From contig SCNI01000021.1 in NCBI GenBank assembly GCA_005502775.1, positions 1-62,869 of the forward strand: a DNA stretch of 62,869 nt, read 5' to 3'. Position numbers and translations under genes: made by a program. The stretch is from Microbacteriaceae bacterium 3FA27C10. Its GTDB lineage: Bacteria; Actinomycetota; Actinomycetes; Actinomycetales; Microbacteriaceae. The notes below the pieces were generated by a model. The model worked only from the letters and a program-made list of their open reading frames with translations. It did not search any database and was not told the origin of the DNA. Positions 6,992 through 20,557 of this stretch are shown here, one piece after another. Positions within the stretch are counted from its first letter, which is position 1. Each line of letters starts with the position of its first letter.

Positions 6992-8380
6992 TCAGGCCCG
7001 CCTGGCCTCGGTCTCGTCGAGCGCGAAGTCGCCTTCGAGTTCCTCCTCGCGTGCGGCGGGCGACTCCGCCCCGCGGCCGATCTCCGCGAGCGAGAGCGCG
7101 CCCGTGAGCGTCTCCTCGCCGGATGCGCCGAAGACGAGCCGGGGCCGCAACCGGCCGCGCGCGCCCAGCTGCACGCGCATCCCGCGCCAGCGCACGAGGT
7201 ACACCACTCCGGCGGCGAAAGCCACGAACCCGGCCAGGGCGGCCACCCCGAGCCCCCAGCGGGCGCCGAAGGTGTTCGCCACGGCACCGAGCAGGGGAGC
7301 GCCGAGGGGGGTGCCGCCCATGAAGATGGCCATGTAGAGCGCCATCACGCGTCCGCGCATCCGCTGATCGGTGGTGGTCTGCACGGTGCCGTTGGCCGTG
7401 GTCATCAGCACCTGGCCGGCGAAGCCGATGAACATCAGGGCCACGGCGAACAGTGCGAGGGTGGGCGAGACCGAGGCCGCGAGCGCGCTCACGCCGAAGC
7501 CCGCGCAGGCGAGGAACACCAGCCGCACGCGCGGCTTGTCGCGGCTCGCGGAGAGCAGCGCTCCGGCCACCGAGCCCACCGCCATCACAGAGGTGAGCAG
7601 TCCGAAGCCGGCCGAGTCGAGTCCGAACACCGAGGTCGACATGGTCGAGACGAAGATCTGGTAGTTGAAGCCGAAGGTGCCGATGATGAACACGATCACG
7701 AAGAGGATCATGAGGTCGGGCCGCCCGCGGACGTAGCGGAACCCGGCGAGCAGCTGCCCTTTCGCGCGCGGCGCCCGCGCCAGCACCACGAGCGCCGAGC
7801 GCCGGATGAACAGCAGCGACACCACGACGGCGGCGAACGAGGCCGCGTTCAGAAGGAACACCCAGCCCGCGCCGATCACCGCCACGAGCAGCCCCGCCAC
7901 GGCGGGCCCGATGGTGCGTGCCGCATTGAAGGAGGCCGAGTTGAGGGCCACGGCGTTCGATACGTTGGCACCTGAGACGAGTTCGGCCACGAAGGTCTGG
8001 CGCACCGGCGCGTCGATCGCCGAAGCGATGCCGAGCAGCAGCGCGAAGACGTAGACGATCCAGAGCTGGGCGAGCCCGGAGAGCACGATCAGCCCGAGAG
8101 CGAGGCCCAGGACGCCCATCGCGACCTGCGTGACCATCAGGGTGCGGCGGCGGTCGAAGCGGTCGGCGATGAGCCCGGAGATCGGCACGAGCAGCAATTG
8201 CGGGCCGAGCTGCAACGCGGTGGTGATGCCGAGGGCCACGGCGTCGTGGTCGCTCAGCTCGGTGAGCACGATCCAGTCCTGAGCCGTGCGCTGCATCCAG
8301 GTGCCCACGTTCGAGACCAGGGCCCCGGCGAACCAGATGCGGTAGTTGAGGCTCGAGAGCGAGCGGAACATCGCGCTCAC
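6992..8380 (-). CDS. MFS transporter, efflux type (EntS/MFS_3-like)
   Basis: This 462-residue membrane protein has about 12 hydrophobic segments within residues 10-400. The opening LNYRIWFAGALVSNVGTWMQ and the ADRFDRRRTLM loop between helices 2 and 3 are typical of the MFS_3 drug and siderophore exporter group. An acidic cytoplasmic tail of about 60 residues follows. The ATG overlaps the MarR stop by four bases (ATGA), so both are translated from one transcript and MarR probably controls export. The substrate cannot be read from the sequence. Confidence 0.87.
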   Translation of the reverse strand: MSAMFRSLSSLNYRIWFAGALVSNVGTWMQRTAQDWIVLTELSDHDAVALGITTALQLGPQLLLVPISGLIADRFDRRRTLMVTQVAMGVLGLALGLIVLSGLAQLWIVYVFALLLGIASAIDAPVRQTFVAELVSGANVSNAVALNSASFNAARTIGPAVAGLLVAVIGAGWVFLLNAASFAAVVVSLLFIRRSALVVLARAPRAKGQLLAGFRYVRGRPDLMILFVIVFIIGTFGFNYQIFVSTMSTSVFGLDSAGFGLLTSVMAVGSVAGALLSASRDKPRVRLVFLACAGFGVSALAASVSPTLALFAVALMFIGFAGQVLMTTANGTVQTTTDQRMRGRVMALYMAIFMGGTPLGAPLLGAVANTFGARWGLGVAALAGFVAFAAGVVYLVRWRGMRVQLGARGRLRPRLVFGASGEETLTGALSLAEIGRGAESPAAREEELEGDFALDETEARRA

Positions 8381-8820
8381 TGGTCGGCCATCCGGCGCAG
8401 GATGCCCGCGGCTCCCTCGAGCACGGCGAGCTCGTCGGCGTCGAGCGCGGCCAGGCGCTGGTCGAGCCAGGCGTCCCGGCGCCGGCGGGTCTCGAGCACG
8501 ACGCTGCGGCCGGCGTCGGTGAGGCCCACGAGCACCAGGCGGCGGTCGGCTTCGCTCTTCGTGCGCGTGACGTAGCCCGCGGCCTCGAGGATGTTCAGTG
8601 TGCGATTCATCGACGGCGGCGTCACGCGCTCGTGGGCGCTGAGGGCGGCCGGGGTGAGCTCGCCGCGCCGCAGCAGCGCGCCGAGCACGCCCGACTGCGT
8701 GTCGCTCAGCTCGTCGTCGGCCTTCTCCCGCCGCAGCCGCCGGGAGAGTCGGAGAGTGGCAGCGCGCAGCTCAGCGCTGAGGCTGGCTTCGGTTCGCTGA
8801 TCGGTCACGATAGTTAGCAT
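8377..8820 (-). CDS. MarR-family transcriptional regulator
   Basis: This 147-residue winged-helix protein has the MarR core: LSDTQSGVLGALLRRGELT, the recognition helix region PSMNRTLNILEAAGYV, and the wing RTKSEADRRLVLVGLT. The start may be ATG 8820 or GTG 8808; I chose the ATG. A perfect 8-3-8 palindrome at 8825-8843 lies immediately upstream, where a MarR dimer would block transcription. The four-base overlap with the MFS gene indicates a regulator-pump operon. It is divergent from ffh. Confidence 0.88.
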   Translation of the reverse strand: MLTIVTDQRTEASLSAELRAATLRLSRRLRREKADDELSDTQSGVLGALLRRGELTPAALSAHERVTPPSMNRTLNILEAAGYVTRTKSEADRRLVLVGLTDAGRSVVLETRRRRDAWLDQRLAALDADELAVLEGAAGILRRMADQ

Positions 8821-8824
8821 ACGC

Positions 8825-8843
8825 TCATTAGCTTTGCTAATGA
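8825..8843 (-). promoter_or_regulatory. Candidate MarR operator
   Basis: TCATTAGC-TTT-GCTAATGA is a perfect inverted repeat with 8-base arms and a 3-base spacer. It is AT-rich against GC-rich surroundings and sits 5 bases upstream of the marR ATG. It fits the dyads bound by MarR dimers and probably mediates autorepression of the marR-MFS operon. Binding is inferred. Confidence 0.65.
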
Positions 8844-8929
8844 AATGGCGACGTCTCGGGGGCTGCCGGCCCGCGCATCCGCGGGAGCACGCCCGATGCA
8901 CAGCCCGGTGCGGTTAAACTGGCTGCACG

Positions 8930-10507
8930 ATGGCTACTTTTGGAAACCTCTCGGACAGGCTCGCCGAAACCTTCAAGAACCTCCGCACGAAGGGAAAGCT
9001 GAGCCCGGCGGATGTCGACTCGACCGTTCGCGAGATCCGTCGCGCCCTGCTCGACGCCGACGTCGCGCTCGACGTGGTGAAGGACTTCACCAGCAAGGTG
9101 CGCGAGCGCGCGCTCGGCGACGAGGTGAACAAGGCGCTCAACCCCGCCCAGCAGGTGGTGCAGATCGTCAACGAGGAGCTCGTGCAGATCCTCGGCGGCA
9201 CCCAGCGCCGGCTCGAGTTCGCGAAGAAGCCGCCGACCGTCATCATGCTCGCCGGCCTTCAGGGGGCCGGTAAGACGACGCTCGCGGGCAAGCTCGCGAA
9301 GTGGCTCGCGAAGGACAATCACACCCCGCTGCTCGTGGCGGCCGACCTCCAGCGCCCCAACGCGGTGAACCAGCTGCAGGTCGTGGGCGGCCAGGCCGGT
9401 GTTCCGGTCTACGCGCCGGAGCCGGGCAACGGCGTGGGCAACCCCGTGCGCGTGGCGAAGGACAGCATCAAGTACGCCGTCGACAAGCAGTACGACACGG
9501 TCATCATCGACACGGCCGGCCGTCTCGGCGTCGACGCCGACATGATGAAGCAGGCCGCAGACATCCGCAAGGCCGTCGACCCCGACGAGGTGCTCTTCGT
9601 CATCGACGCGATGATCGGTCAGGACGCCGTGGCCACGGCCCGCGCCTTCCAGGAGGGTGTCGACTTCACCGGTGTCGTGCTCACCAAGCTCGACGGCGAC
9701 GCCCGTGGCGGTGCGGCGCTCTCGGTGGCCTCGGTCACCGGCCGGCCGATCATCTTCGCCTCGACGGGGGAGACGCTCGACGACTTCGAGCCGTTCTACC
9801 CCGACCGCATGGCTTCGCGCATCCTCGATCTCGGCGACATCCTCTCGCTCATCGAGCAGGCCCAGGAGGCCTTCGACGAGGACGAGGCGCGCAAGGTCGC
9901 CGAGAAGTTCGCGACCGACAGCTTCACGCTCGACGACTTCCTCAAGCAGATGCAGCAGCTGCGCAACATGGGCTCCATCAAGAAGATGATGGGCATGCTC
10001 CCGGGCGCCGGCGGCCTCAAGCAGCAGCTCGACAACTTCGACGAGAAGGAGATCGTGCGCACCGAGGCCATCATCCAGTCGATGACCAAGGCCGAGCGCA
10101 CCAACCCCAAGCTCCTCAACGGCTCGCGCCGCCTCCGGATCGCCAAGGGTTCCGGAATGACCGTCACCGACGTCAACTCGCTCGTGCAGCGCTTCGAGCA
10201 GGCCTCGAAGATGATGAAGACCGTGGCCAAGGGCGGCGTGCCGAACGTGCCCGGCATGGGCCCCATCCCGGGCGCCGGCTTCGGCGGAGGCCGCGGCAAG
10301 CCGCAGGCCAAGAAGAAGCAGGGCTCCCGCTCAGGCAACCCGGCGAAGCGCGCGGCCGAGAACGCGGCGCGGGCGAGCGGCGAGAAGCCGGCCGTCACCG
10401 CGGGTTCCGGCGGGGGAGCGGGCTTCGGCCTCGCCTCGAAGGCACCGAGCGGGCAGCCGAACCCGAGCCCCGAAGAGCTCGAGGCGCTGCAGCGTTTCCT
10501 TCGCTAG
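8930..10507 (+). CDS. ffh: Signal recognition particle protein Ffh
   Basis: This 525-residue GTPase binds 4.5S RNA and signal sequences and delivers nascent membrane proteins to FtsY. The N domain covers residues 1-95. The G domain has GLQGAGKTT at about 107, DTAGR at about 192 and TKLDG at about 252. The Met-rich M domain (about 300-440) includes the GSGM RNA-binding motif. The C-terminal tail of about 80 residues is rich in Gly, Lys and Ala, longer than in E. coli (453 residues in total) and typical of actinobacteria. A TAAACT hexamer 9 bases before the ATG, with no clear ribosome site, suggests a very short or absent leader. A strong terminator follows. Confidence 0.98.
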   Translation: MATFGNLSDRLAETFKNLRTKGKLSPADVDSTVREIRRALLDADVALDVVKDFTSKVRERALGDEVNKALNPAQQVVQIVNEELVQILGGTQRRLEFAKKPPTVIMLAGLQGAGKTTLAGKLAKWLAKDNHTPLLVAADLQRPNAVNQLQVVGGQAGVPVYAPEPGNGVGNPVRVAKDSIKYAVDKQYDTVIIDTAGRLGVDADMMKQAADIRKAVDPDEVLFVIDAMIGQDAVATARAFQEGVDFTGVVLTKLDGDARGGAALSVASVTGRPIIFASTGETLDDFEPFYPDRMASRILDLGDILSLIEQAQEAFDEDEARKVAEKFATDSFTLDDFLKQMQQLRNMGSIKKMMGMLPGAGGLKQQLDNFDEKEIVRTEAIIQSMTKAERTNPKLLNGSRRLRIAKGSGMTVTDVNSLVQRFEQASKMMKTVAKGGVPNVPGMGPIPGAGFGGGRGKPQAKKKQGSRSGNPAKRAAENAARASGEKPAVTAGSGGGAGFGLASKAPSGQPNPSPEELEALQRFLR

Positions 10508-10524
10508 AACGGCGCGGTACGTCG

Positions 10525-10562
10525 AAAGGCCCGCCCCCGTCCGAGACGGGAGGCGGGCCTTT
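10525..10562. terminator. Bidirectional rho-independent terminator
   Basis: A GC-rich hairpin with arms AAAGGCCCGCC and GGCGGGCCTTT encloses a CCGTC/GACGGG inner stem. It lies between the convergent ffh and apionate-operon ends and has A/T tails on both sides, so it can stop transcription from either direction. Confidence 0.88.
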
Positions 10563-10592
10563 CCGATGAGCTCAGCGCCTGCGCTCGGCCGA

Positions 10593-11456
10593 TCAGCGCT
10601 CGATCTTGTCGAGGTGCAGCATCGCGGCGAGGTTCTTGTCGAGCTCCTCGTCGGTGAAGACCTTCTTCCAGTCCTCCTTGATGATGGCTCCGTGGCCGTA
10701 GTCCATCGCGATCAGGCAGGCGTCGCTGAACGGGTTGTCGCCCTTCAGCGTGTTCGCGAGCGCCACCTGGGTGTGTCCGAGCAGGATGGCGCGGGCAGCC
10801 GGCTCCGGAACGCCCATGGTGTTCACGGCCTCGTCGAGCGACTCCTTCAGCAGGGCGCCGATCATGCAGGCGATAGTCTCCACGAGGGTGGGCTCGAGCT
10901 GCGCGAGCTGCTTCACGGTGGTCCAGTGCACGTCTCCCACGGGGGCGAAGATGGCGCGCACGACCTGCTCGACCTGGGCCTTCTTGGTCTCGTCGTCGCT
11001 CTCGATCGCGGCGATCGCATCCTGAAGCGCGGCGATGCCGCCGAAGGTGTCGGCGTATTCCTCGGGCGTGTGACGCTCGACGAACACCGAGGGGTGACAG
11101 GGGTGCGTGACGGCCTGGATGACGTCGTCACGGCGGGTGAGGAGGCCCGCGTAGGCGGCGGCCGGGTCGAGCGTCAGCACGATCGAGCCCGACTTCATCT
11201 GCGGCACCACGTCGGCCGACACGGCCTTGAGCGCGAGGTCGGGAACGGCGAGCACCACGACGTCGGCGTCGCGGACGGCGTCGGGCGTCTCGGTGAGGGT
11301 GCGGCCGGTGGCGGTCACTCGCTCCTGGCCGGCGGGCGAGTTCTCGCTGTAGTACACGGTGTAGTCGGTCTTGACGAGGTTGTTGGACACGCGCATGCCC
11401 ATCTTCCCGCCTGCGCCGATGACCGCGATGGTGAGAGTGTCAGTTGACGTCGACAT
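10593..11456 (-). CDS. apnO: PGDH_C-type NAD-dependent dehydrogenase, probable D-apionate oxidoisomerase
   Basis: This 287-residue cytoplasmic enzyme has an N-terminal Rossmann motif (AVIGAGGKMGMRV, about residues 11-23) and a helical C-terminal domain of the phosphogluconate-dehydrogenase-like family, with THPCHPSVF and GALLKESLDEAVNTMG. The family includes ApnO, which oxidises and isomerises D-apionate to 3-oxo-isoapionate. The neighbours supply the remaining steps expected after that reaction, which is the main reason for this assignment; a different sugar acid cannot be excluded. It is the last gene of the operon, and its start lies inside the end of the preceding gene (17-base overlap). 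Confidence 0.65.
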   Translation of the reverse strand: MSTSTDTLTIAVIGAGGKMGMRVSNNLVKTDYTVYYSENSPAGQERVTATGRTLTETPDAVRDADVVVLAVPDLALKAVSADVVPQMKSGSIVLTLDPAAAYAGLLTRRDDVIQAVTHPCHPSVFVERHTPEEYADTFGGIAALQDAIAAIESDDETKKAQVEQVVRAIFAPVGDVHWTTVKQLAQLEPTLVETIACMIGALLKESLDEAVNTMGVPEPAARAILLGHTQVALANTLKGDNPFSDACLIAMDYGHGAIIKEDWKKVFTDEELDKNLAAMLHLDKIER

Positions 11457-12261
11457 GGTTGCTCCTTAGGTAGTCGAGGTTGTGGGTGTTCCAGTCGTTC
11501 TCCAGCCGGATGGTCTCCTCCAGGGAGTCGCCCAGCGGAAGCCAGTGTTCGATCACGAGATTGATGCCACGCTCCTCGGGCCGCACGGTCTTCATCAGGT
11601 GCTCGAAGTCGAGCAGCCCGGTGCCGAGCGCCGCGCCTTCGAGGGTGAAGCCCACCCAGCCGCCACGACGGGTGAACGCGAAGTCCTTCACGTGCACGTT
11701 GGCCGTGTACGGGGCGCAGCGGTCGATCACGTCGACCGGGTTCTCGAGGGCGGCGACGGTGTTGGCGGGGTCGAGGCAGATGCCGAGTCTCGGATGTGCG
11801 AGCTGCTCCACGAGGCCCACCAGCGCCGTCGACGACACCTGCTCGTAGGTCTCGAGGGCGAGTGTGACCCCGGCGTCGTCGAACGCGCCGAGCACCTCGC
11901 CGAGCTGCTGCTCGGCCTGGACGAGAGTGGGCCGGGAGGCGGGGGAGTACAGCATCGAGCGCAGCAATGGGGCGCCGAGCGCCTGCGCGATGCCGAGGTA
12001 CCGGCGCAGGTGGTCGGGGGAGATGCCTTTCGTGCCCACTTCGAGCACGATGTCGAGCTCCTCGGCCAGCCCCGCCAGGCGGGCGAGCTCGGCGGCGCTG
12101 AACTCCTCGATCGGCGCGTAGTCGCAGATCTGGAAGAGCGGCACGCCGAGCTCGTGCGTGCGGCGCAGCATGTCGAAGGCGTCGAGCCGGCGCAGCCCGG
12201 GCTGCTCGCCCGCGAGCTCGGAGTGCTGCCAGAAGAAGGCATACGTGCTGAGCCCGATCAT
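11440..12261 (-). CDS. oiaC: Xylose-isomerase-like TIM barrel, probable 3-oxo-isoapionate decarboxylase
   Basis: This 273-residue sugar-phosphate isomerase/epimerase-like TIM barrel shows metal-ligand strands: ALETYEQV (Glu), GICLDPANT (Asp), NVHVKDF (His, Lys, Asp) and a late Glu in LVIEHW. In D-apionate pathways a member of this fold (OiaC) decarboxylates 3-oxo-isoapionate to L-erythrulose, which would link the dehydrogenase to the tetrulose kinase and isomerases encoded here. An epimerase of the EryC type is the alternative. The start overlaps the preceding stop by four bases (ATGA), and the 3' end overlaps the next gene by 17 bases. Confidence 0.62.
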   Translation of the reverse strand: MIGLSTYAFFWQHSELAGEQPGLRRLDAFDMLRRTHELGVPLFQICDYAPIEEFSAAELARLAGLAEELDIVLEVGTKGISPDHLRRYLGIAQALGAPLLRSMLYSPASRPTLVQAEQQLGEVLGAFDDAGVTLALETYEQVSSTALVGLVEQLAHPRLGICLDPANTVAALENPVDVIDRCAPYTANVHVKDFAFTRRGGWVGFTLEGAALGTGLLDFEHLMKTVRPEERGINLVIEHWLPLGDSLEETIRLENDWNTHNLDYLRSNHVDVN

Positions 12262-13004
12262 GCGCGGGCCCCCGCTTCGGCGAGCACACGTTCGAGCGCG
12301 GCAGGGTCGTGCGCGAACCGGCCGAGGAACAGGCCGTCGACCTCGGGGCCGAGCTCGGAGAGGAGGCCGGGGCCGGCGCTGCCGCCGTAGATCACGGCGC
12401 TGCCCGGCCGGTGGGCCACGGCGGCATGCAGAAGGGCGCACACGGCGGTGACGTAGGCGGGCTCCGCAGGTTCGGCGGCGCCGATCGCCCACACCGGCTC
12501 GTAGGCCACGATCACGGGGCCGTCGACCGCGCCGGCCAGGGCCGATGCGATCTGCCGCAGGCATTCGCCGGCGGCCGCGGCCGGCTCGGCGCGCATCCGC
12601 TCGCCCACGCAGAGCACGGGAGTCAGCCCGTTGCGGAGGGCCGCGGCGGTCTTCTGCGCCACGGTCTCGTCGGTCTCGCCGAACAGCGAGCGGCGCTCGG
12701 CGTGGCCGACCTCGGCCAGGCGCACGCCGATCTCGGCCAGCTCGGGGCCGCCCACTTCGCCGGTGAAGGCGCCCGTGTCGGCGGCTGCGACATCCTGTGC
12801 CCCCACGAGCACCCGAGAGCCCTCGAGCGCGCGGACGCTCGAGGCCAGCGAGAGATAGCCCGGGATGACGAACAGCTGCACCCGGCCCTCGGCCACCGCC
12901 GGGGTCGCGCGCCCGATCTCGCCGACCCGCTCGATCCAGGAGGCGGTCTGCGCGTGCCCGAAGTACATCTTCAGGCTCACACCGACGAGGGTGGGAGAAC
13001 TCAT
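12258..13004 (-). CDS. lerI: Triose-phosphate-isomerase-like enzyme, probable L-erythrulose 1-phosphate isomerase
   Basis: This 248-residue TIM barrel keeps the triosephosphate isomerase catalytic set: Lys12 (SLKMYFG), His101 (GHAERR, usually GHSERR) and Glu169 (AYEPVWAIG). The altered N-terminal motif (VSLKMYFG instead of NWKMN) separates it from housekeeping TpiA and matches the LerI/EryH branch, which converts L-erythrulose 1-phosphate to D-erythrulose 4-phosphate. It starts one base inside the preceding RpiB-type stop (TGATG), so translation is coupled. The function rests on the family split and the operon context. Confidence 0.72.
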   Translation of the reverse strand: MSSPTLVGVSLKMYFGHAQTASWIERVGEIGRATPAVAEGRVQLFVIPGYLSLASSVRALEGSRVLVGAQDVAAADTGAFTGEVGGPELAEIGVRLAEVGHAERRSLFGETDETVAQKTAAALRNGLTPVLCVGERMRAEPAAAAGECLRQIASALAGAVDGPVIVAYEPVWAIGAAEPAEPAYVTAVCALLHAAVAHRPGSAVIYGGSAGPGLLSELGPEVDGLFLGRFAHDPAALERVLAEAGARA

Positions 13005-13471
13005 CAGCAGGAGCCCGTGGTCTCGTACTCGCTCAGCACGGCGACCTTCTCGGCGCTCGCGCTCTTTTCGTCGAAGCGGTAGGTGAGCCACTCGCGCACG
13101 AGGCGGCGGGCGAGCTCGATGCCGATCACGCGCTGGCCCATGGTGAGCACCTGCGCGTTGTTGGAGAGGATGAGGCGCTCCACCGAGAAGCTGTCGTGCG
13201 CCACCGAGGCGCGGATGCCCGCGACCTTGCCCGCGGCCATCGCCACGCCGATGCCGGTGCCGCAGAACAGCAGCGCGCGGTCGGCGGCGCCTGCGGCGAT
13301 GAGCTCGCCCGCGGCCACTCCCACGCGAGGGTAGGGCGTGTGCCCGTCGGCGTCGACGCCGACGTCGGTGACCGACTCGACGAGATCGCTGGCGAGGAGA
13401 TCCGTCTTCAGGATCTCCTTGTAGTCGTAACCGGCGTCATCCGATCCGATGACGATGCGGAGCTTGTCCAT
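13004..13471 (-). CDS. derI: RpiB-type sugar-phosphate isomerase, probable D-erythrulose 4-phosphate isomerase
   Basis: This 155-residue LacAB/RpiB-family protein has the opening [13 protein letters not shown] and the catalytic Cys70 in [37 protein letters not shown] forms the phosphate- and sugar-binding region. In tetrulose pathways this family (DerI/EryI) turns D-erythrulose 4-phosphate into D-erythrose 4-phosphate, an intermediate of the pentose phosphate pathway. Ribose-5-phosphate isomerase activity is the alternative. The gene follows the kinase stop by 3 bases and overlaps the next start by one base. Confidence 0.75.
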
Positions 13472-13474
13472 GCT

Positions 13475-15211
13475 CTATTTCTCCTCTTCTCCGCCGGTCA
13501 GCACCGGCGCGATCGCGTGCGCGATCAGTGCGAACGAGTACGCTCCGGGATCGGGCGTGCCCAGGCTCTTCTCCGCGTGCGGGCGCGCGCGGCCCATCAG
13601 CGGCAGCAGCTCGGCGGTGGCCTCCGCGGCGGCGCTCGCGGCGTCGGCGGCGAGCGTCCAGGCCTCGGCCAGCGGATGCCCGGCCGCGACCTCGGCGGCC
13701 AGAGTCTCGGCGAAGGGCACGAGGGCGTCGACCATGGTCTTGTCGCCGGGTTGCGCCTTGCCGAAGGCCATGATGGCCTCGACCGCGTCGGTGACGCCGG
13801 CGCTCACGGAGACGCCGGTGGGCGCATCCGTGTCTCCGAGCCGACCGCCGAGAGCGGCGAGGGCGGCGCCCCAGAGCGCGCCCGACGTGCCTCCGGCCTT
13901 GTTGGCCCAGGCGTCTCCGGCGAGGCTCAGGGTGGTCTGGATGCCCGCGCCGGCCTCCACGGCGGCGCTCGCTGCGGCGGCGCCCGCCCGGGCCCCGCGT
14001 TGCATGCCGATGCCGTGGTCGCCGTCTCCGGCGATCGCGTCGATGCGGCCGAGCTCCTCGACGTTCTCGTCGACCACGGTCACGATCGCGGCCAGCGCGC
14101 GTTCGGCCTGCCGTGCGGCGGCCTGCGAGACCTCGCTCGCCTCGGGGATCGGCACCTCGTCGGTGCGCGCGATCTCCGCCGCGTCGAGCTGCTCGGCGGG
14201 GGCGACGGAGCCCTTGCGGTAGGCGGGGGTGTCGGCCGGAGCGCGCCAGAAGCCCTCGAGCTCCTCGTCGAGCCAGAACAGCGTGAGCGAGAGTCCCGCC
14301 ATGTCGAAGCTCGTCACGAGCTCGCCCACCTCGGGGTCGACCACCTCCAGGCCGGCGGCCTCGAGCAGGCGGGCGACACAGCGGTAGACCACGAAGAGCT
14401 CCTCGTACTTCACCGAGCCGAGGCCGTTCAGGATGACGCCCACGCGGTGCCCGGCGGCCTCCTCGATGCCCTCCGGCAGCTCGGCGAGCAGCGCGCCCAC
14501 GAGCTGCCCGGCGAGCTCGTCGGCGCTCGGGACGCCGGTCTCGTCGATGCCGGGCTCGCCGTGGATGCCCATGCCCACCGCCATCCGCCCCTCGGGGACG
14601 GAGAACAGCGGATGCTCGGCGCCGGGCAGCGTGCAGCCGCTGAACGCGACGCCGAAGGAACGGGTGCGTTCGTTGGCGAGAGTCGCGACGCGCACCACCT
14701 CGTCGAGCGGGTAGCCCGCCTCGGCGGCGCCGGCGGCGGCCTTGAACACCGTGAAGTCGCCCGCGATGCCGCGGCGCTTGTGCTTCTCGGCGGGCGGCGC
14801 GCTCGAGATGTCGTCGGTCACCACCACCGTGCGGGTGGGGATGCCGGCGGCGTTCAGCTTCTCCTCGGCGCGGCTGAAGTGCAGCACGTCGCCGGCGTAG
14901 TTGCCGTAGCTCAGCAGCACGCCGGCGCCGCGCTCGGCCGCGGTGACCACCGACTCGACCTGCTGCGCCGAGGGCGAGGCGAAGAGGTTGCCCATGGCCG
15001 CGCCGTGGGCGAGGCCCGCACCGACGATGCCGCCGAAGGCCGGGTAATGGCCCGAGCCGCCGCCGATCACCAGGGCGACCTGACCGTCGGGGGTGCGGGT
15101 GCTCCGCACCACGCCGCCGGCGACCCGGCGCACATGGTTGCGGTTGGCGGCCACGAAGCCGTCGATCATCTCGTCGGCGAAGTCGGCCGGGTCGTTGTAC
15201 AAACGCGTCAT
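13475..15211 (-). CDS. lerK: DhaK-DhaL fusion kinase, probable L-erythrulose kinase
   Basis: This 578-residue ATP-dependent kinase has a DhaK domain (about 1-335) fused to a DhaL domain (about 370-575). Gly-rich GGGSGHYPAFGG opens the substrate site. His217 (GMGIHGEPG) is the residue that binds the keto-substrate covalently in dihydroxyacetone kinases. The DhaL nucleotide and metal site is DAIAGDGDHGIGM. LerK and DerK, which phosphorylate erythrulose, share this fused architecture. Neighbouring tetrulose-phosphate isomerases favour erythrulose over dihydroxyacetone. An AAGGAG site precedes the ATG, and the permease gene lies 16 bases upstream. Confidence 0.8.
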   Translation of the reverse strand: MTRLYNDPADFADEMIDGFVAANRNHVRRVAGGVVRSTRTPDGQVALVIGGGSGHYPAFGGIVGAGLAHGAAMGNLFASPSAQQVESVVTAAERGAGVLLSYGNYAGDVLHFSRAEEKLNAAGIPTRTVVVTDDISSAPPAEKHKRRGIAGDFTVFKAAAGAAEAGYPLDEVVRVATLANERTRSFGVAFSGCTLPGAEHPLFSVPEGRMAVGMGIHGEPGIDETGVPSADELAGQLVGALLAELPEGIEEAAGHRVGVILNGLGSVKYEELFVVYRCVARLLEAAGLEVVDPEVGELVTSFDMAGLSLTLFWLDEELEGFWRAPADTPAYRKGSVAPAEQLDAAEIARTDEVPIPEASEVSQAAARQAERALAAIVTVVDENVEELGRIDAIAGDGDHGIGMQRGARAGAAAASAAVEAGAGIQTTLSLAGDAWANKAGGTSGALWGAALAALGGRLGDTDAPTGVSVSAGVTDAVEAIMAFGKAQPGDKTMVDALVPFAETLAAEVAAGHPLAEAWTLAADAASAAAEATAELLPLMGRARPHAEKSLGTPDPGAYSFALIAHAIAPVLTGGEEEK

Positions 15212-15227
15212 GATGGAACTCCTTGGG

Positions 15228-16625
15228 TCAGTGCAGGACGACGGTGTCCGGGGCGTCGAGGCCGGAGACCCGGCCGCGGCGGGCGAGCAGCACCATGAGC
15301 ACGGCCGAGAGCAGCATGAAGAAGCCCACGATCGCCATCGGCACGATGTACTGCGGGGTGCCGTCGGCGTTCTTGGTCCAGTCGGCGACCGCGCCCGTGA
15401 TGTACGGCGCGCCGAAGCCGGCGATGTTGCCCACGGTGTTGATCAGCGCCACACCGGCCGCTGCGGCGACTCCGGTGAGGAACTGCGTGGGCAGCGTCCA
15501 GAAGTTCGGCAGCACCGCGAAGATGGCCATCGCCGTGATCGCGATGATGGCGATCGTCGCGACCGGCGACCCGGCGAGCAGCGCGAAGGGGATGGTCAGC
15601 GCGGCGACGACCGCGGGGCCCGCGATGTGCCAGGTCTTGAGACCTCGGCGGCTGACATCCTTCGTCCAGAACCACAGCGCGATGGCCGCGGGGATGTAGG
15701 GGATGGCCGTGATGAGGCCCTTCTGGAACACGTCGTACTTCACGCCGTAGAGCTCCTGGAAGCCCGAGATGATGGTGGGAAGGAAGAAGGCGAGCGTGTA
15801 GAGGCCGTAGATGAAGCCGAAGTAGATGAACGCCAGCGTCCAGACCCGGCCGCTCGAGAAAGCCTGCTTGAACCCGCCGCGCTTCTTGCCGCCGGAGCTC
15901 GTGAGGTTGAGCGACTCGGTCTTCACCTTCTCGTTCTCGAGTTCGGTGGTGAGCCACTGCTGCTCCTCCGGGGTGAGCCACTTCGCGTCGGTGGGCTTGT
16001 CCTTGAGGTAGAACCAGGCGACCACGCCGATGACGATGGCCGGGATGCCCACGCCGAGGAACATGACGCGCCAGCCCTCGAGGCCGAACAGACCGTGTGC
16101 CCCGATGAGGAGTCCGGCGAGCGGGGCGCCGACCACCGTGGTGAGGGGCTGCGCCAAGTAGAAGAGGGCGAGGATCTTGCCGCGGTGGCGGGCGGGCACC
16201 CAGAGGCTGAGGAAGAGGATGGCGCCGGGGAAGAACCCGGCCTCGGCCACGCCCAGCAGGAAGCGGAGCACTGCCAGCTGCTCGAAGTTGCCCACCCAGG
16301 TGAACAGAACCGCGACGATGCCCCAGCTCACCATGATGCGGGCGAGCCAGCGGCGGGCGCCGAAGCGGGCCAGCGCCAGGTTCGAGGGCACCTCGAGCAG
16401 GATGTAGCCGATGAAGAACACGCCCGAGGCGAAGCCGACCTGCGTGACGCTGAGCGCCAGATCGTCGTTCATGCCGTTCGGCGCGGCGAAGCCGATGGCC
16501 GAACGGTCGAGGTAGTTGATGAAGAACATGAGAGCGACGAACGGCACGAGTCGCCAGGCGACTTTGCGGATCGTCGACTTCTCGACGGCGGAAACGGTGG
16601 TTTCCGCGCTGGTGGTGACAGACAC
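15228..16625 (-). CDS. MFS permease, ACS (organic anion) family
   Basis: This 465-residue membrane protein has about 12 transmembrane segments. INYLDRSAIGFAAP in helix 1, GYILLEVPSNLALARFGARRW in the next loop and FFPGAILFLSLWVPARHRGK mark the anion:cation symporter family, whose members import sugar acids, tartrate and similar carboxylates. This supports a sugar acid such as D-apionate, rather than a neutral tetritol, as the operon substrate. The start is GTG with an AAAGGAG site. It is the first gene of the operon, downstream of the promoter and palindrome at 16690-16718. Confidence 0.85.
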   Translation of the reverse strand: MSVTTSAETTVSAVEKSTIRKVAWRLVPFVALMFFINYLDRSAIGFAAPNGMNDDLALSVTQVGFASGVFFIGYILLEVPSNLALARFGARRWLARIMVSWGIVAVLFTWVGNFEQLAVLRFLLGVAEAGFFPGAILFLSLWVPARHRGKILALFYLAQPLTTVVGAPLAGLLIGAHGLFGLEGWRVMFLGVGIPAIVIGVVAWFYLKDKPTDAKWLTPEEQQWLTTELENEKVKTESLNLTSSGGKKRGGFKQAFSSGRVWTLAFIYFGFIYGLYTLAFFLPTIISGFQELYGVKYDVFQKGLITAIPYIPAAIALWFWTKDVSRRGLKTWHIAGPAVVAALTIPFALLAGSPVATIAIIAITAMAIFAVLPNFWTLPTQFLTGVAAAAGVALINTVGNIAGFGAPYITGAVADWTKNADGTPQYIVPMAIVGFFMLLSAVLMVLLARRGRVSGLDAPDTVVLH

Positions 16626-16689
16626 GAGAACTCCTTTGTCAGTGTTGGCGGGCGACGCTGATCGACGATCATGACGAGGCGATGACGAG

Positions 16690-16718
16690 AACCTATCAAC
16701 CGGTTGACCAATTTACAA
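16690..16718 (-). promoter_or_regulatory. Catabolic operon promoter with embedded operator
   Basis: On the minus strand, TTGTAA (16713-16718) and TAGGTT (16690-16695) are spaced by exactly 17 bases and fit -35 and -10 boxes for the permease gene. The spacer contains a perfect 12-base palindrome, TCAACCGGTTGA (16696-16707). A repressor bound there would block RNA polymerase. The divergent FadR/GntR regulator starting at 16758 is the natural candidate. Confidence 0.68.
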
Positions 16719-16757
16719 GCGACACCGGGACATCGCCGAAGTTGATAGCGTGATCGC

Positions 16758-17531
16758 GTGCCCGCTTATCCCGGATCCGCGTCGCAAGACATGAGCGCCG
16801 CCATCGGCAGCGTGCCGATCGGCACGGCCGTGAGCGCCGTCGCGAAGCGGCTGCTCGACTACTTCACGAGCGGCGAGATCGAGCCGGGCACGCGGCTGCC
16901 GCCCGAGCGGCAGCTGGCAGCCTCGCTCGGCATCGGCCGCTCGGCGGTGCGCGAGGCGCTCGCCGCCCTCGAGATCCTCGGCATCGTCGACGTGCGGCCC
17001 GGCTCCGGAACCTACCTGCGCAGCACTGCCTCCGAGCTACTGCCCGAGACTCTCAACTGGGGCCTCATGCTCGCCGCTCCCCGCACCGAGGAGCTCATCG
17101 CCGTGCGCGGCGAGCTCGAGGTGTTCGCGGCGCGCACCGCCGCCGTGACCATCACGGAGGAGCAGCTGCGCAAGCTGCACGAGCACCTCGTGGCCATGCG
17201 GGAGAACCTCTCCGTGCGCACGCGCTTCATCGAGGCCGACCTCAAGTTCCACCTGCAGATCGCCCAGGCGGCGGGCAACCACGTGCTCGCCGACCTGCTG
17301 CAGAGCATCCGCTCACTGCTGCGCATCTGGGTGGAGCGCGGGCTCGAGGCCGACGAGGATGCACAGCGCGCGTTCGAAGAGCACGAACGCGTCTACGAGG
17401 CCCTGCGCACCCGGGATCCGGCTGTGGTCGAGCAGGCGATGCGCCAGCACATGGACACGGCCGGTGAGCGCTTGCGCCGCACGGTCGGAGAGGGCCGCCC
17501 CGCGGTCGGCGAGGCCGCCGCAGAAGCTTAG
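16758..17531 (+). CDS. FadR/GntR-family transcriptional regulator
   Basis: This 257-residue regulator has an N-terminal winged helix (about residues 22-90: GTRLPPERQLAASLGIGRSAVREALAALE, then VRPGSGTYL). A helical FCD effector domain follows, with metal-binding-type residues in DLKFHLQIAQAAGNH and a late EEH/RQHMDTA. FCD regulators usually sense small carboxylates. It is divergent from the apionate-like operon, whose promoter carries a 12-base palindrome about 50 bases away, so it is probably the operon's repressor. The start is GTG at 16758; a later ATG at 16791 is possible. Confidence 0.88.
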   Translation: MPAYPGSASQDMSAAIGSVPIGTAVSAVAKRLLDYFTSGEIEPGTRLPPERQLAASLGIGRSAVREALAALEILGIVDVRPGSGTYLRSTASELLPETLNWGLMLAAPRTEELIAVRGELEVFAARTAAVTITEEQLRKLHEHLVAMRENLSVRTRFIEADLKFHLQIAQAAGNHVLADLLQSIRSLLRIWVERGLEADEDAQRAFEEHERVYEALRTRDPAVVEQAMRQHMDTAGERLRRTVGEGRPAVGEAAAEA

Positions 17532-17540
17532 GCTTGGCGT

Positions 17541-18350
17541 ATGACCTTCTCCTCTGCTTCGCGCCCTGTGCGCGTGGGCGTGCAGATCGCGCCCCAGCAC
17601 TCGTCTTACGGCACCATCCGCGACACCCTCGCCGAGCTCGAAGACCTCGGCGTCGACATCGCCTTCAACTGGGACCACTTCTACCCGCTCTCCGGGGAGC
17701 CCGACGGCCTGCACTTCGAGGGCTGGACGATGCTCGCGGCCTGGGCGGAGCAGACCTCGCGCATCCAGTTCGGCCCGCTCGTGACCTGCAACAGCTACCG
17801 CAACCCCGACCTGCTCGCCGACATGGCCCGCACCGTCGATCACATCTCCGCCAAGGACGGCGCCGAGGGCCGCCTGGTCTTCGGCATCGGCTCGGGCTGG
17901 TTCGAGCGCGACTACGACGAGTACGGCTACGAGTTCGGCACGGCCGGCCAGCGGCTGGATGCGCTCTCCGAGGCGCTGCCCCGCATCGAGGCCCGCTGGG
18001 CCAAGCTGAACCCGGCGCCCACGCGCGACATCCCCGTGCTCATCGGCGGTGGCGGCGAGAAGAAGACGCTGCGCATCGTGGCCGAGCACGCTGACATCTG
18101 GCACTCGTTCAGCGATGTCGAGACGCTCACCCGCAAGCTCGCCGTGCTGCGCGAGTGGACCGACAAGGTCGGCCGAGACTTCTCCGAGATCGAGATCTCG
18201 ACGGGCGTCGCCGGCGCCGACGGCACGCGCCAGCCGGCGCTCGAGCAGCAGCTCGAACTCGGCGTCACCCTCTTCACCCTCGGCGTCACCGGCCCCGACA
18301 TCGACATGCAGGCCGTCCGCGACCTCGTCAAGTGGCGCGACAGCCTCTAG
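17541..18350 (+). CDS. LLM-class F420-dependent oxidoreductase
   Basis: This 269-residue luciferase-superfamily TIM barrel shows FNWDHFYPL, RIQFGPLVTCNSYRNP and GRLVFGIGSGWFERDYDEYG, all typical of the F420-dependent TIGR03560-like group. It has no signal peptide and its substrate is unknown. It starts nine bases after the GntR stop. A TAGGCT hexamer exactly 6 bases before the ATG suggests a leaderless transcript of its own. It ends at a pair of GC hairpins facing the YbdK gene. Confidence 0.85.
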   Translation: MTFSSASRPVRVGVQIAPQHSSYGTIRDTLAELEDLGVDIAFNWDHFYPLSGEPDGLHFEGWTMLAAWAEQTSRIQFGPLVTCNSYRNPDLLADMARTVDHISAKDGAEGRLVFGIGSGWFERDYDEYGYEFGTAGQRLDALSEALPRIEARWAKLNPAPTRDIPVLIGGGGEKKTLRIVAEHADIWHSFSDVETLTRKLAVLREWTDKVGRDFSEIEISTGVAGADGTRQPALEQQLELGVTLFTLGVTGPDIDMQAVRDLVKWRDSL

Positions 18351-18358
18351 CTGCCTCC

Positions 18359-18381
18359 GGGGCCGTGCTTCGCGCGGCCCC
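18359..18381 (+). terminator. Hairpin after the F420 oxidoreductase
   Basis: A 10-base stem (GGGGCCGTGC / GCGCGGCCCC, one G-U pair) with a TTC loop begins 8 bases after the stop codon. It lacks a T-run, so termination strength is uncertain. Confidence 0.55.
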
Positions 18382-18420
18382 TCCGGGTCGCGCCGGTCCC
18401 TGCCCGGCGCGACGCGACAT

Positions 18421-18456
18421 GTGACGGTTCGGTCGCTAGCGCGGCCGAGCCGTCAC
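18421..18456 (+). terminator. Second hairpin in the convergent gap
   Basis: A 16-base stem (18421-18436 with 18441-18456) closes a TAGC loop. Its two non-Watson-Crick positions become G-U pairs only in the plus-strand RNA, so it probably folds from plus-strand transcripts. No T-run follows. Confidence 0.5.
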
Positions 18457-18538
18457 CCTGGGTCGGCGAGTACGGCCCGCGGCATGCAATTTCGTGCTGT
18501 GCGATGGGGCAGGTGCATGCCTGATCCTTCGTGCCCGG

Positions 18539-19672
18539 CTAATTGAGCCCGTGCCTCAGCTCCCGCGCCAGCGAGGCCACCACCGCCCGCAGGCTCCCGC
18601 CGTTGGCCTCGGCCACGCGGAGCTGGCGCTGGTAGCTGGCGCCGTGCTCGAGGATCAGGTTCACCTGGTCGAGCTCGGCCGCGCAGCCCAGCCGCTCGGC
18701 GACCGGCGCGAGGCGTTCGAGCTCGCCGGCCACGGCATCCGTCACCAGCTGCTCGTCGCCCGCCGCGTTCAGGATGATCTCGGCGTCCATGCCGTAGCGG
18801 GCCGCGCGCCACTTGTTCTCGCGCACGAACCACGGCTGCATCGTGGGCAGCTCCTCGCCGTCGTCGAGGCGCTGCGACATGTCGTCGACGAGGCACTGGA
18901 TGAGTGCGGCGACCGCCCCGATCTCCTCCGCACTCGAGAGCCCGTCGCACGCCCGCATCTCCACGGTGCCCCACTGCGGGCTCGGCCGGATGTCCCAGCG
19001 CACCTCGGTGTGGTCGCTGATGACGCCGGTCTTGAGGAGGTCGTCGACGTACTCCTCGTAGTTCGCCCAGCTGCCGAACTGGTAGGGCAGCCCCGCGGTC
19101 GGGAGCTGCTGGAACATCAGCGCCCGGTTGCTCGCGTAGCCGGTGTTGACACCGCCCCAGAACGGGCTCGAGGCGCTCAGGGCCTGCAGGTGCGGGTAGT
19201 AGTTGAGCAGCGAGTTGACGATCGGCAGCGCCTTTTCGCGGTCATCGATGCCGACGTGCACGTGGATGCCCCAGATCATCATGTTGCGGCCCCACCACTG
19301 GGTGCGGTCGATGAGCTTGTGGTAGCGCTCCTTGTCGGTCACCTGCTGGTCGAACCATTGCCCGAAGGGGTGCGATCCGGCGCAGATCAGCTCCACGTCG
19401 AGCGGGTCGGTGACCGCGCGCACCTCGGCGAGCTGCGCCTGCAGATCGGCGACGGCGTCGCCCACGCGATGATGCACGCGCGTGACCAGTTCGACGGTGT
19501 TGAGCAGCAGTTCGCCGGTGATCTGCGGATGCTCGGAGCCGTCATCCTGCCGCAGCGCGTTCATGACGTCGTCGGCCACCGAGACCAGATCACCCGAGCT
19601 CTGCTCCACCAGCGCGACCTCCCACTCGATGCCGAGGGTCGAGCGTTCGGAGGGGGCGAAGGAGATCTCCAT
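18539..19672 (-). CDS. YbdK-type carboxylate-amine ligase (glutamate-cysteine ligase 2 family)
   Basis: This 377-residue ATP-grasp-like ligase belongs to the GCS2/YbdK family. Motifs include [12 protein letters not shown] (about 12-23, acidic metal ligands), [32 protein letters not shown] and VEMRACDG. Members make gamma-glutamylcysteine-like amides, but the real substrate of YbdK proteins is often unknown and actinobacteria normally use mycothiol. It is convergent with the preceding oxidoreductase and divergent from the rpsP operon. Confidence 0.88.
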
Positions 19673-19847
19673 CGAGTGCCTTTCGGGAAATTACCGCTTT
19701 GCCAGCAATATCTGTCAGAATAGCCAGTCGAGTCCTGCCCCGCCCGACCCTCTAATCAGGCGGGCAGATTCCCTTAGAGCTTTTGCCGAGTGTGCCCCCA
19801 CGCTCACGGCTGTCAGTTCGCCCACCTTTACATCACACAGGAGAATT

Positions 19848-20318
19848 GTGGCTGTCAAAATCCGTCTGAAGCGTCTCGGCAAGATCCGTGCGCCCTACTA
19901 CCGCATCGTCGTCGCCGACTCGCGCACCAAGCGCGATGGTCGAGTGATCGAGGAGATCGGTCTCTACCACCCCACCGAGGAGCCCTCGGTCATCAAGGTC
20001 GACTCCGAGCGTGCGCAGTACTGGCTCGGCGTCGGCGCGCAGCCGACCGAGCAGGTCGCCGCGCTCCTCAAGCTCACGGGCGACTGGGGCAAGTTCAAGG
20101 GCGACAAGGACGCGGTCTCCACCGTCCGCGTCAAGGGCGAGAAGGAAGCCTTCGTCGCCGACGAGAAGAAGAAGCCGGTGCTCAAGCCCAAGGCCGAGCC
20201 GAAGGCCGCTCCGGTCGAAGCTGAAGCCGCTGCCGACGCCGAGGCTGCCGCCGCGACCGACACCGAGGCGAACGAGGCGGCCGTCGAGGCCGCCGAAGAC
20301 GCCGCCGACAAGGCCTGA
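19848..20318 (+). CDS. rpsP: 30S ribosomal protein S16
   Basis: This 156-residue protein has its S16 core in residues 1-85 ([47 protein letters not shown]). The remainder is a Lys/Ala/Glu-rich tail, about double the E. coli length and common in actinobacteria. The start is GTG at 19848, preceded by an AGGAG site; the frame is open upstream, but the conserved sequence begins here. First gene of the rpsP-khpA-rimM group. Confidence 0.97.
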
Positions 20319-20320
20319 CG

Positions 20321-20557
20321 TTGCTCGCTCCTGCTCTTGAACACCTCGTCAAGGGGATTGTCGACAATCCCACCGAGGTTCGTGTCGTCACGAAGAGCTC
20401 GCCGCGCGGCGAGGTCCTCGAGGTGCGTGTGCACCCCGATGACCTCGGCCGCGTGATCGGCCGTTCCGGTCGCACCGCTAAAGCGCTGCGCACCCTCGTC
20501 TCCGCGCTGGCCGATGGCAAGCGCGTTCGTGTAGACGTGGTGGACACCGATTTCTGA
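20321..20557 (+). CDS. khpA: KH-domain RNA-binding protein KhpA
   Basis: This 78-residue protein has a single KH domain with the GRVIGRSGRTAKALRTL motif (GxxG loop). KhpA binds RNA with KhpB and influences cell division and elongation in Gram-positive bacteria. It starts with a rare TTG two bases after the rpsP stop, so it depends on translation from rpsP. Its stop overlaps the probable rimM start region. Confidence 0.93.
   Translation: MLAPALEHLVKGIVDNPTEVRVVTKSSPRGEVLEVRVHPDDLGRVIGRSGRTAKALRTLVSALADGKRVRVDVVDTDF

Follow-up and report, generated by a model that had tools for sequence, protein, structure and literature searches.

The degradation of D-apionate reportedly proceeds via ApnO, OiaC, LerK, LerI and DerI, a route said to have been described by Carter et al. 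in 2018 (Nat Chem Biol), and its reactions lead from the acid through 3-oxo-isoapionate and L-erythrulose to D-erythrose 4-phosphate. The last three enzymes are also said to make up the LerK-LerI-DerI tetritol pathway described for Mycolicibacterium smegmatis by Huang et al. in 2015. Here we report a six-gene operon with a divergent FCD-type regulator on contig SCNI01000021.1 of Microbacteriaceae bacterium 3FA27C10, an organism described as a soil or plant bacterium; the whole stretch analysed, hereafter the window, comprises 62,869 bases with a G+C content of 70%. Judging by its gene content and its relatives, it is highly likely to be a D-apionate catabolic operon predicted to convert D-apionate to D-erythrose 4-phosphate, so that the gene set would very probably import a breakdown product of apiose and turn it into a central metabolite, and it looks like a self-contained version of the known route for the acid alone. 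PMC6302742 and PMC13001218 both cite Carter et al. on apiose catabolism; among the papers listed by the literature searches none was seen to describe the operon for Microbacteriaceae, which is weak evidence.

Compared with the route of Carter et al., the window operon has the same enzyme type for each step and the same predicted end product, but it contains neither a sugar dehydrogenase nor a lactonase and instead has a dedicated ACS-type permease and an FCD regulator. It shares with the M. smegmatis tetritol pathway the types of kinase and two isomerases giving erythrose 4-phosphate, whereas the entry in M. smegmatis is a polyol dehydrogenase and the proposed entry in the window is an acid oxidoisomerase followed by a decarboxylase. 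The rhizobial and roseobacterial D-apiose clusters (L113, L115, L142, and that of strain LCG007, described in PMC11747546) carry a homologous dehydrogenase with about 42% identity in the ApnO position, but there the 3-oxo acid is phosphorylated by OiaK and then decarboxylated by the RuBisCO-like OiaX; a dehydrogenase of the Gfo/Idh type, the D-apionate lactonase ApnL and an ATP-binding cassette (ABC) importer are present in those clusters, and none of them in the window operon. A similar arrangement was found on plasmids of Erwinia sp. E602 and Pantoea sp. At-9b (L111, L112), where genes for a major facilitator superfamily (MFS) permease, a DhaK-DhaL kinase, a triosephosphate isomerase (TPI), a TIM barrel and a PGDH_C dehydrogenase follow in the order seen in the window, with rpiB lying divergently on the other strand, a regulator of a different kind and an identity of 46-58% for the TIM barrel and the dehydrogenase.

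The operon occupies positions 10593-16625 of the minus strand, and all six genes, as well as the divergent regulator, were found where the first-pass annotation had placed them. In the order of transcription they code for an ACS-type MFS permease, proposed as the D-apionate importer (15228-16625, 465 aa), a DhaK-DhaL fusion kinase, a proposed L-erythrulose 1-kinase resembling LerK (13475-15211, 578 aa), an RpiB-type isomerase with the proposed role of DerI (13004-13471), a TPI-type isomerase with the proposed role of LerI (12258-13004), a xylose-isomerase-like TIM barrel, proposed as an OiaC-like 3-oxo-isoapionate decarboxylase (11440-12261, 273 aa), and a PGDH_C-type NAD-dependent dehydrogenase, proposed as an ApnO-like D-apionate oxidoisomerase (10593-11456, 287 aa). 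A mechanical open reading frame finder extends the TIM-barrel and TPI-type genes to 12564 and 13091, the likely ATG codons being at 12261 and 13004, respectively; with these starts the genes are separated by gaps of 16 and 3 bases or overlap by 1 base (RpiB and TPI types), 4 bases (TPI type and TIM barrel) and 17 bases. The relatives' loci used for comparison were the best 80 of 384 by similarity and thus not a random sample; their neighbourhoods were read with a simple codon-usage gene caller and checked with tblastn, and 62 of them, having at least 9 kb on either side of the dehydrogenase gene, made up the well-flanked subset. All six genes are present in 39 of these 62 loci, in identical order and strand in 38 of the 39, so the gene set goes beyond chance.

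One link to D-apionate comes from a survey of 349 Microbacteriaceae genomes, which, although the genomes are related, gives a less biased count than the 80 loci. The dehydrogenase was detected in 70 genomes (E-value up to 1e-40) and an ApnL homologue in 57 (E-value up to 1e-20), with both in 56 genomes against 11.4 expected (hypergeometric probability 3e-50, a value that ignores relatedness); the only genome with ApnL and without the dehydrogenase was G467. ApnL lies within about 10 kb of the dehydrogenase gene in 38 of the 62 well-flanked loci, and a short-chain dehydrogenase/reductase (SDR) with at least 50% identity to the reference accompanies it in 35 of the 38, as opposed to none of the 24 loci lacking ApnL. 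Members of gene clusters with an apiosidase-like representative were located in 11 of the 80 loci and those of clusters with an alpha-L-rhamnosidase-like representative in 20, and the plant cell wall would be the source of the apiose.

The dehydrogenase matches PGDH_C (E-value 2e-55) and also KARI_N (E-value 6e-7), the latter being the N-terminal domain of ketol-acid reductoisomerases, which would fit an oxidation coupled to group migration. It is also similar to PDB entry 5t57 (E-value 1e-56), which is itself named a semialdehyde dehydrogenase and which we take to be ApnO. The protein consists, over its full length, of a Rossmann domain and PGDH_C and belongs to the same family as the relatives encoded next to OiaK, OiaX or ApnL: 51 residues that never vary among the 11 rows of the clade associated with these proteins are also kept by 95% or more of the window clade (86 rows). 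Distant relatives (37-49% identity) occur in Rhizobium, Pararhizobium, Salipiger, Shinella, on a plasmid of a haloarchaeon and elsewhere, each encoded next to one or several proteins of the set OiaK, OiaX, ApnL and Gfo/Idh dehydrogenase, or next to homologues of these. The Rhizobium neighbours score 777 bits for OiaX, over the cut-off of 700, and 475 bits for OiaK, under the cut-off of 700, and in Salipiger the neighbour scores 633 bits for ApnL, under the cut-off of 750. A search of 396 genomes of the phylum gave seven matches over the greater part of the protein, of which the window gene and three others (L002-L004) adjoin a TIM barrel and the remaining three (L005-L007) an OiaK homologue. 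No NCBIfam model named for ApnO or OiaC matched in the search. The family and the context thus make the dehydrogenase a putative ApnO-like enzyme, and together with the 56 of 57 ApnL genomes the 51 shared residues lend comparative support to the D-apionate to D-erythrose 4-phosphate route put forward in the first-pass annotation.

On plasmid pBB1 of Cupriavidus necator (L145, 6609-11496) there is a gene identical letter for letter to PDB 5t57 over the compared stretch; it stands between an upstream ACS-type MFS permease on one side and OiaK (763 bits, over the cut-off) and a RuBisCO-like protein (OiaX model 437 bits, under the cut-off) on the other, and the 16.8 kb examined gave no match to ApnL or to Gfo/Idh proteins. 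In Jiangella ureilytica (L067, 10001-10867) a dehydrogenase 74% identical to that of the window has no TIM barrel nearby and lies near a gene of the rhamnosidase cluster; the best kinase matches in this genome have 37-38% identity, and no LerK-like kinase was found there. On a Haloarcula plasmid (L141, 2195-3454) a gene bearing the name ribulose 1,5-bisphosphate carboxylase has its best match in OiaX (504 bits, under the cut-off) and adjoins an OiaK-like kinase and the dehydrogenase, the annotation being probably wrong.

The regulator (16758-17531, plus strand, 257 aa) belongs to the FCD/GntR type (FCD E-value 3e-28, GntR E-value 2e-17) and is NanR-like, with 128 bits for NF003011, below the cut-off of 260. 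Between the regulator gene and the first gene of the operon the relatives share a palindrome with the consensus TTGGTCAACCGGTTGACCAA, and its counterpart in the divergent intergenic region of the window, CCTATCAACCGGTTGACCAA (16692-16711), is proposed as the operator, reaching a position weight matrix score of 27.4 as compared to 7.5 for the next best site in the window. The operator core was found within two mismatches in 60 of the 61 regulator-operon intergenic regions, in none of 61 shuffled regions and in one of 61 random pieces; since the motif was derived from those 61 regions, the first count is a description and not a test. The same palindrome also connects ApnL to the operon where the two are unlinked: 13 ApnL genes lying away from the operon, chosen by hand from the survey (left out were G467 and at least four on contigs other than that of the dehydrogenase, namely G451, G523, G673 and G674), have the SDR gene just upstream in all cases, and in nine of them an operator scoring at least 15 stands just upstream of the SDR-ApnL unit, five of the nine being species of a single genus, Agreia. 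In 198 kb of other DNA there was one site of such a score. One of the nine units (L177, 3736-7989) has a TIM-barrel gene in the first position, followed by the SDR gene, ApnL and its own FCD gene, with the dehydrogenase gene elsewhere in the genome.

A pattern search of the whole host genome, covering up to one mismatch to the operator core, returned 10 places. Five sites outside the window scored at least 19.7, and all were located inside called genes, so they were rejected as further members of the regulon; the remaining four places scored at most 11.0 and their surroundings were left unread. The window site was the only intergenic one among the places checked.

The TIM-barrel protein matches AP_endonuc_2 (E-value 2e-17). 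Its residues E137, D164, H190 and E238, which we take from the fold family to be ligands of the metal site, are near-invariant in 90 rows, and an AlphaFold2 model built from 44 sequences of the window and its relatives has a mean predicted local distance difference test score (pLDDT) of 95.5. Among solved structures, Art22 and D-tagatose 3-epimerases come closest in fold, with 14-19% identity in the ten best; a functional call by fold search was abandoned, as it gave only the general xylose-isomerase-like fold and did not separate a decarboxylase from an epimerase. The gene adjoins the ApnO-type gene, and the codon-usage caller reported the dehydrogenase and the TIM barrel in 78 of the 80 loci each. 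Since it accompanies the dehydrogenase nearly everywhere, since the operon holds no other candidate decarboxylase, and since no match to OiaX or OiaK (E-value up to 1e-15) was detected in the DNA of the 80 relatives' loci, the TIM barrel is proposed, by adjacency and elimination, to be the 3-oxo-isoapionate decarboxylase. Alphaproteobacterial relatives of about 30% identity (L114, L146-L148) lie in TRAP-transporter clusters where the displayed stretch contains no dehydrogenase; they were excluded from consideration as having another function. A different apionate cluster was noticed in the same genus: in a Herbiconiux relative (G547, L123, 6773-19001) an ABC importer, an OiaK-like kinase, the dehydrogenase (49% identity), an ApnL-like protein, a RuBisCO-like protein resembling OiaX and a TIM barrel homologous to that of the window are encoded side by side.

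The kinase contains Dak1 and Dak2 domains and passes NF011049 (743.8 bits, cut-off 492), and the TPI-type protein matches Pfam TIM (E-value 3e-52) as well as PDB entry 11ef, an L-erythrulose-1-phosphate isomerase (E-value 4e-35), with two entries named triosephosphate isomerase scoring better. As a second and more typical TPI is encoded elsewhere in the genome (292.6 bits compared to 178.4 for that of the operon), the TPI-type gene of the operon is a paralogue. The catalytic residues named in the first-pass annotation are all present, namely His217 of the kinase, Cys70 of the RpiB-type protein and Lys12, His101 and Glu169 of the TPI-type protein numbered from the ATG at 13004. PMC10733421 reports LerK, LerI and DerI working as a module in Escherichia coli, and PMC12780249 mentions a Curtobacterium isolate (Microbacteriaceae) obtained from an L-erythrulose enrichment. 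Seven of the 62 well-flanked loci have no kinase or isomerase gene near the dehydrogenase; six of these carry the dehydrogenase-TIM barrel pair, and the seventh is the Jiangella locus with the dehydrogenase alone. The genomes of five of the six (not that of L106) were searched, and every one of them holds the kinase (63-66% identity) elsewhere, beside an RpiB-type gene; four of the five units also contain a TPI-type gene, and in the fifth genome (G747) it is found in a second such unit. At one kinase unit (L149) the operator lies about 1.5 kb upstream of the kinase gene, and it was not seen at the other unlinked kinase units within the approximately 1.5 kb searched upstream. The pathway thus appears to consist of two parts, the dehydrogenase with the TIM barrel and the kinase with the isomerases, whose separability is as expected if the first part yields L-erythrulose and the second uses it.

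In the proposed scheme the permease would import D-apionate, the dehydrogenase would oxidise it and move its hydroxymethyl group to give 3-oxo-isoapionate, the metal-dependent TIM barrel would decarboxylate the latter to L-erythrulose, and the kinase and the two isomerases, in the roles of LerK, LerI and DerI, would convert L-erythrulose to D-erythrose 4-phosphate. The FCD regulator would act on its own gene and on the operon via the single palindrome; repression that is lifted by the substrate or by an intermediate is the most likely mode. Every enzyme activity, the transported substrate and the sense of regulation are inferences, and several observations speak against the scheme. A dehydrogenase tree of 35 rows, reduced from 97, separates the proteins associated with OiaK/OiaX from those associated with the TIM barrel, the window protein among them, with support 100/100. 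The window dehydrogenase thus lies outside the clade of PDB 5t57, in a sister clade on a long branch, and its identity to the OiaX-associated proteins is only about 40%; for this reason it is named ApnO-like and not ApnO by clade. Clustering away from ApnO and OiaC had been given in the first-pass annotation as grounds for rejection; this test, as far as it was run, did not refute the route, the shared residues and the ApnL co-occurrence speaking for it, while the position is that of a sister group. The ApnL homologues of Microbacteriaceae fail to reach the curated threshold of NF049900, the model for D-apionate lactonase, one matching with its N-terminal part (E-value 5e-61, 206.9 bits against 750) and that of Agreia scoring 178.6 bits, and four of the 13 unlinked SDR-ApnL units have no operator (L174, L179, L180, L181). 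The fold of the TIM barrel is common to epimerases and isomerases and has no close solved relative, so the fold alone does not give the reaction; in the Herbiconiux cluster mentioned above its homologue stands directly beside the OiaX-like protein, where a second decarboxylase looks redundant. The RpiB-type protein passes an equivalog model named for ribose-5-phosphate isomerase (TIGR02133, 186.7 bits, cut-off 168.2) and stays below that for DerI (NF051858, 136 bits, cut-off 240), whose name points to rhizobial proteins, and the kinase and TPI sequences alone do not separate C4 from C3 substrates. Lastly, the permease occurs both with and without ApnL nearby.

This last point bears on the stage of uptake. 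The permease matches MFS_1 (E-value 8e-50) and scores 258 bits for the D-galactonate transporter family TIGR00893, below the cut-off of 395. In the host genome, which is 99.88% complete, ApnL was not found with the query that had detected it in 57 others, and a family-model search for ApnL, run with no positive control, was also empty; no apiosidase was found, and no orthologue of the SDR either, the best-scoring SDR having 38% identity to the ApnL-linked one and none exceeding 39% over the full length. A complete D-apiose pathway was thus not detected with respect to ApnL and the SDR, the Gfo/Idh-type ApsD not having been searched for. Altogether, 14 of the 70 dehydrogenase-bearing genomes of the family, including this one, have no ApnL match; in the other 13, two loci end at contig edges (L185, L190) and nine of the remaining 11 hold the six genes, the regulator and the operator, two of them (L189, L193) with a different gene order. 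An association of the permease with the absence of ApnL was considered and dropped, since as a contrast it is unsupported: the permease is present in 24 of 38 loci that have ApnL in the vicinity and in 18 of 24 that do not.

It is possible, although unlikely, that the pathway is the same but D-apiose or D-apionolactone is imported, with an unrelated dehydrogenase and spontaneous or non-specific hydrolysis of the lactone giving D-apionate. The permease, found together with ApnL in 24 of the 62 well-flanked loci, may carry something upstream of the acid, and the genome has 45 SDR-family matches and may also encode a Gfo/Idh-type apiose dehydrogenase, which was not searched for genome-wide; on the other side, the near-complete genome yielded no ApnL, apiosidase or closely similar SDR, the permease belongs to the organic-acid (ACS) type, and the same unit recurs in nine of the 11 other ApnL-less genomes in which the upstream DNA is intact. 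These results agree with uptake at the acid stage, because no ApnL, SDR orthologue or apiosidase was found and only one operator is intergenic; because the permease also stands beside ApnL in relatives, its substrate is not settled by them. The earlier suggestion that the lack of apiose dehydrogenase and lactonase genes implies import of the acid therefore holds as far as ApnL, the SDR and apiosidase are concerned and is weakened by the permeases adjacent to ApnL and by the Gfo/Idh type, for which no search was made.

Less probable still is an operon for another branched or C4-C6 sugar acid, for instance a hamamelonate-like one, which would share the same end module. The distance of the dehydrogenase from the OiaX-associated clade would allow it, and a title in the reference list of PMC10176493 indicates that a D-hamamelose pathway exists; however, the window clade is tightly linked to ApnL homologues, both genome-wide and via the common operator, and the three ApnL homologues scanned match only the D-apionate lactonase model in NCBIfam at the thresholds used. 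There is very little to be said for a C3 route, in which a C4 oxo-acid would be decarboxylated to dihydroxyacetone and the kinase and TPI-type enzyme would form triose phosphates, as the resemblance of these two to dihydroxyacetone kinase and triosephosphate isomerase is offset by an RpiB-type gene left without a role, by the separate, more typical TPI in the genome and by the kinase, RpiB and TPI genes moving as one module. An operon for erythritol, threitol or L-erythrulose with an unrelated dehydrogenase and TIM barrel is just as improbable: the kinase-isomerase module alone is a known tetritol end module according to PMC10733421 and PMC12780249, and in some relatives (L092, L107) it lies with an Rbs-type ABC transporter on the opposite strand or apart from the dehydrogenase, but in loci that lack the kinase module or have it at a distance (L062, L063, L092, L099, L100, L106 and L107, not L097) the dehydrogenase-TIM barrel pair stays with the SDR and ApnL, and the operon has no polyol dehydrogenase.

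The operon is an accessory element inserted between ffh and the gene of an LLM oxidoreductase. The site was read in 14 of 15 genomes of the same genus, taken as Herbiconiux (Microbacteriaceae), none of which has the operon there: the two genes are 27-92 bases apart in 11 genomes and 1.05-1.19 kb apart in three, whereas in the window the 7,033 bases separating them are taken up by the operon and its regulator (10507-17541), with nine bases between the regulator stop codon and the LLM start codon. At the nucleotide level the operon, whole or partial, was matched at other sites in two congeners (G741, G742), and the window dehydrogenase has 95-96% identity to that of Agreia and 76% to that of H. 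ginsengi. A GC-rich inverted repeat read by eye at 10525-10563, in the gap where ffh and the operon end towards each other, may be a two-way terminator; it was not among the terminators listed by a terminator scan. No tRNA gene was found in the window, no Rfam family matched in the region 8000-20500, and a consensus promoter scan of 10400-17700 found nothing.

The pathway as such is already known; what is new and testable is the operator, the SDR-ApnL pair and the acid-only form. We tentatively suggest, with somewhat less than even confidence, that Microbacteriaceae contain a recurrent scavenger form of apiose catabolism restricted to the acid, that is, a mobile unit of six genes that has a permease and an operator of its own and needs no sugar-oxidising genes, which would live on D-apionate released by others, and that, as the relatives indicate, the D-apiose dehydrogenase of actinobacteria would be an SDR and not an enzyme of the Gfo/Idh type, and would be paired with ApnL under the same FCD operator. 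The proposed assignment would tie poorly annotated genes, for a PGDH_C dehydrogenase, a TIM barrel and RpiB and TPI paralogues that are given housekeeping names in pipelines, to a plant branched-sugar acid, and the SDR beside ApnL becomes a candidate for a new type of D-apiose dehydrogenase. The second half of the pathway being carried alone would imply that D-apionate itself is available in the environment.

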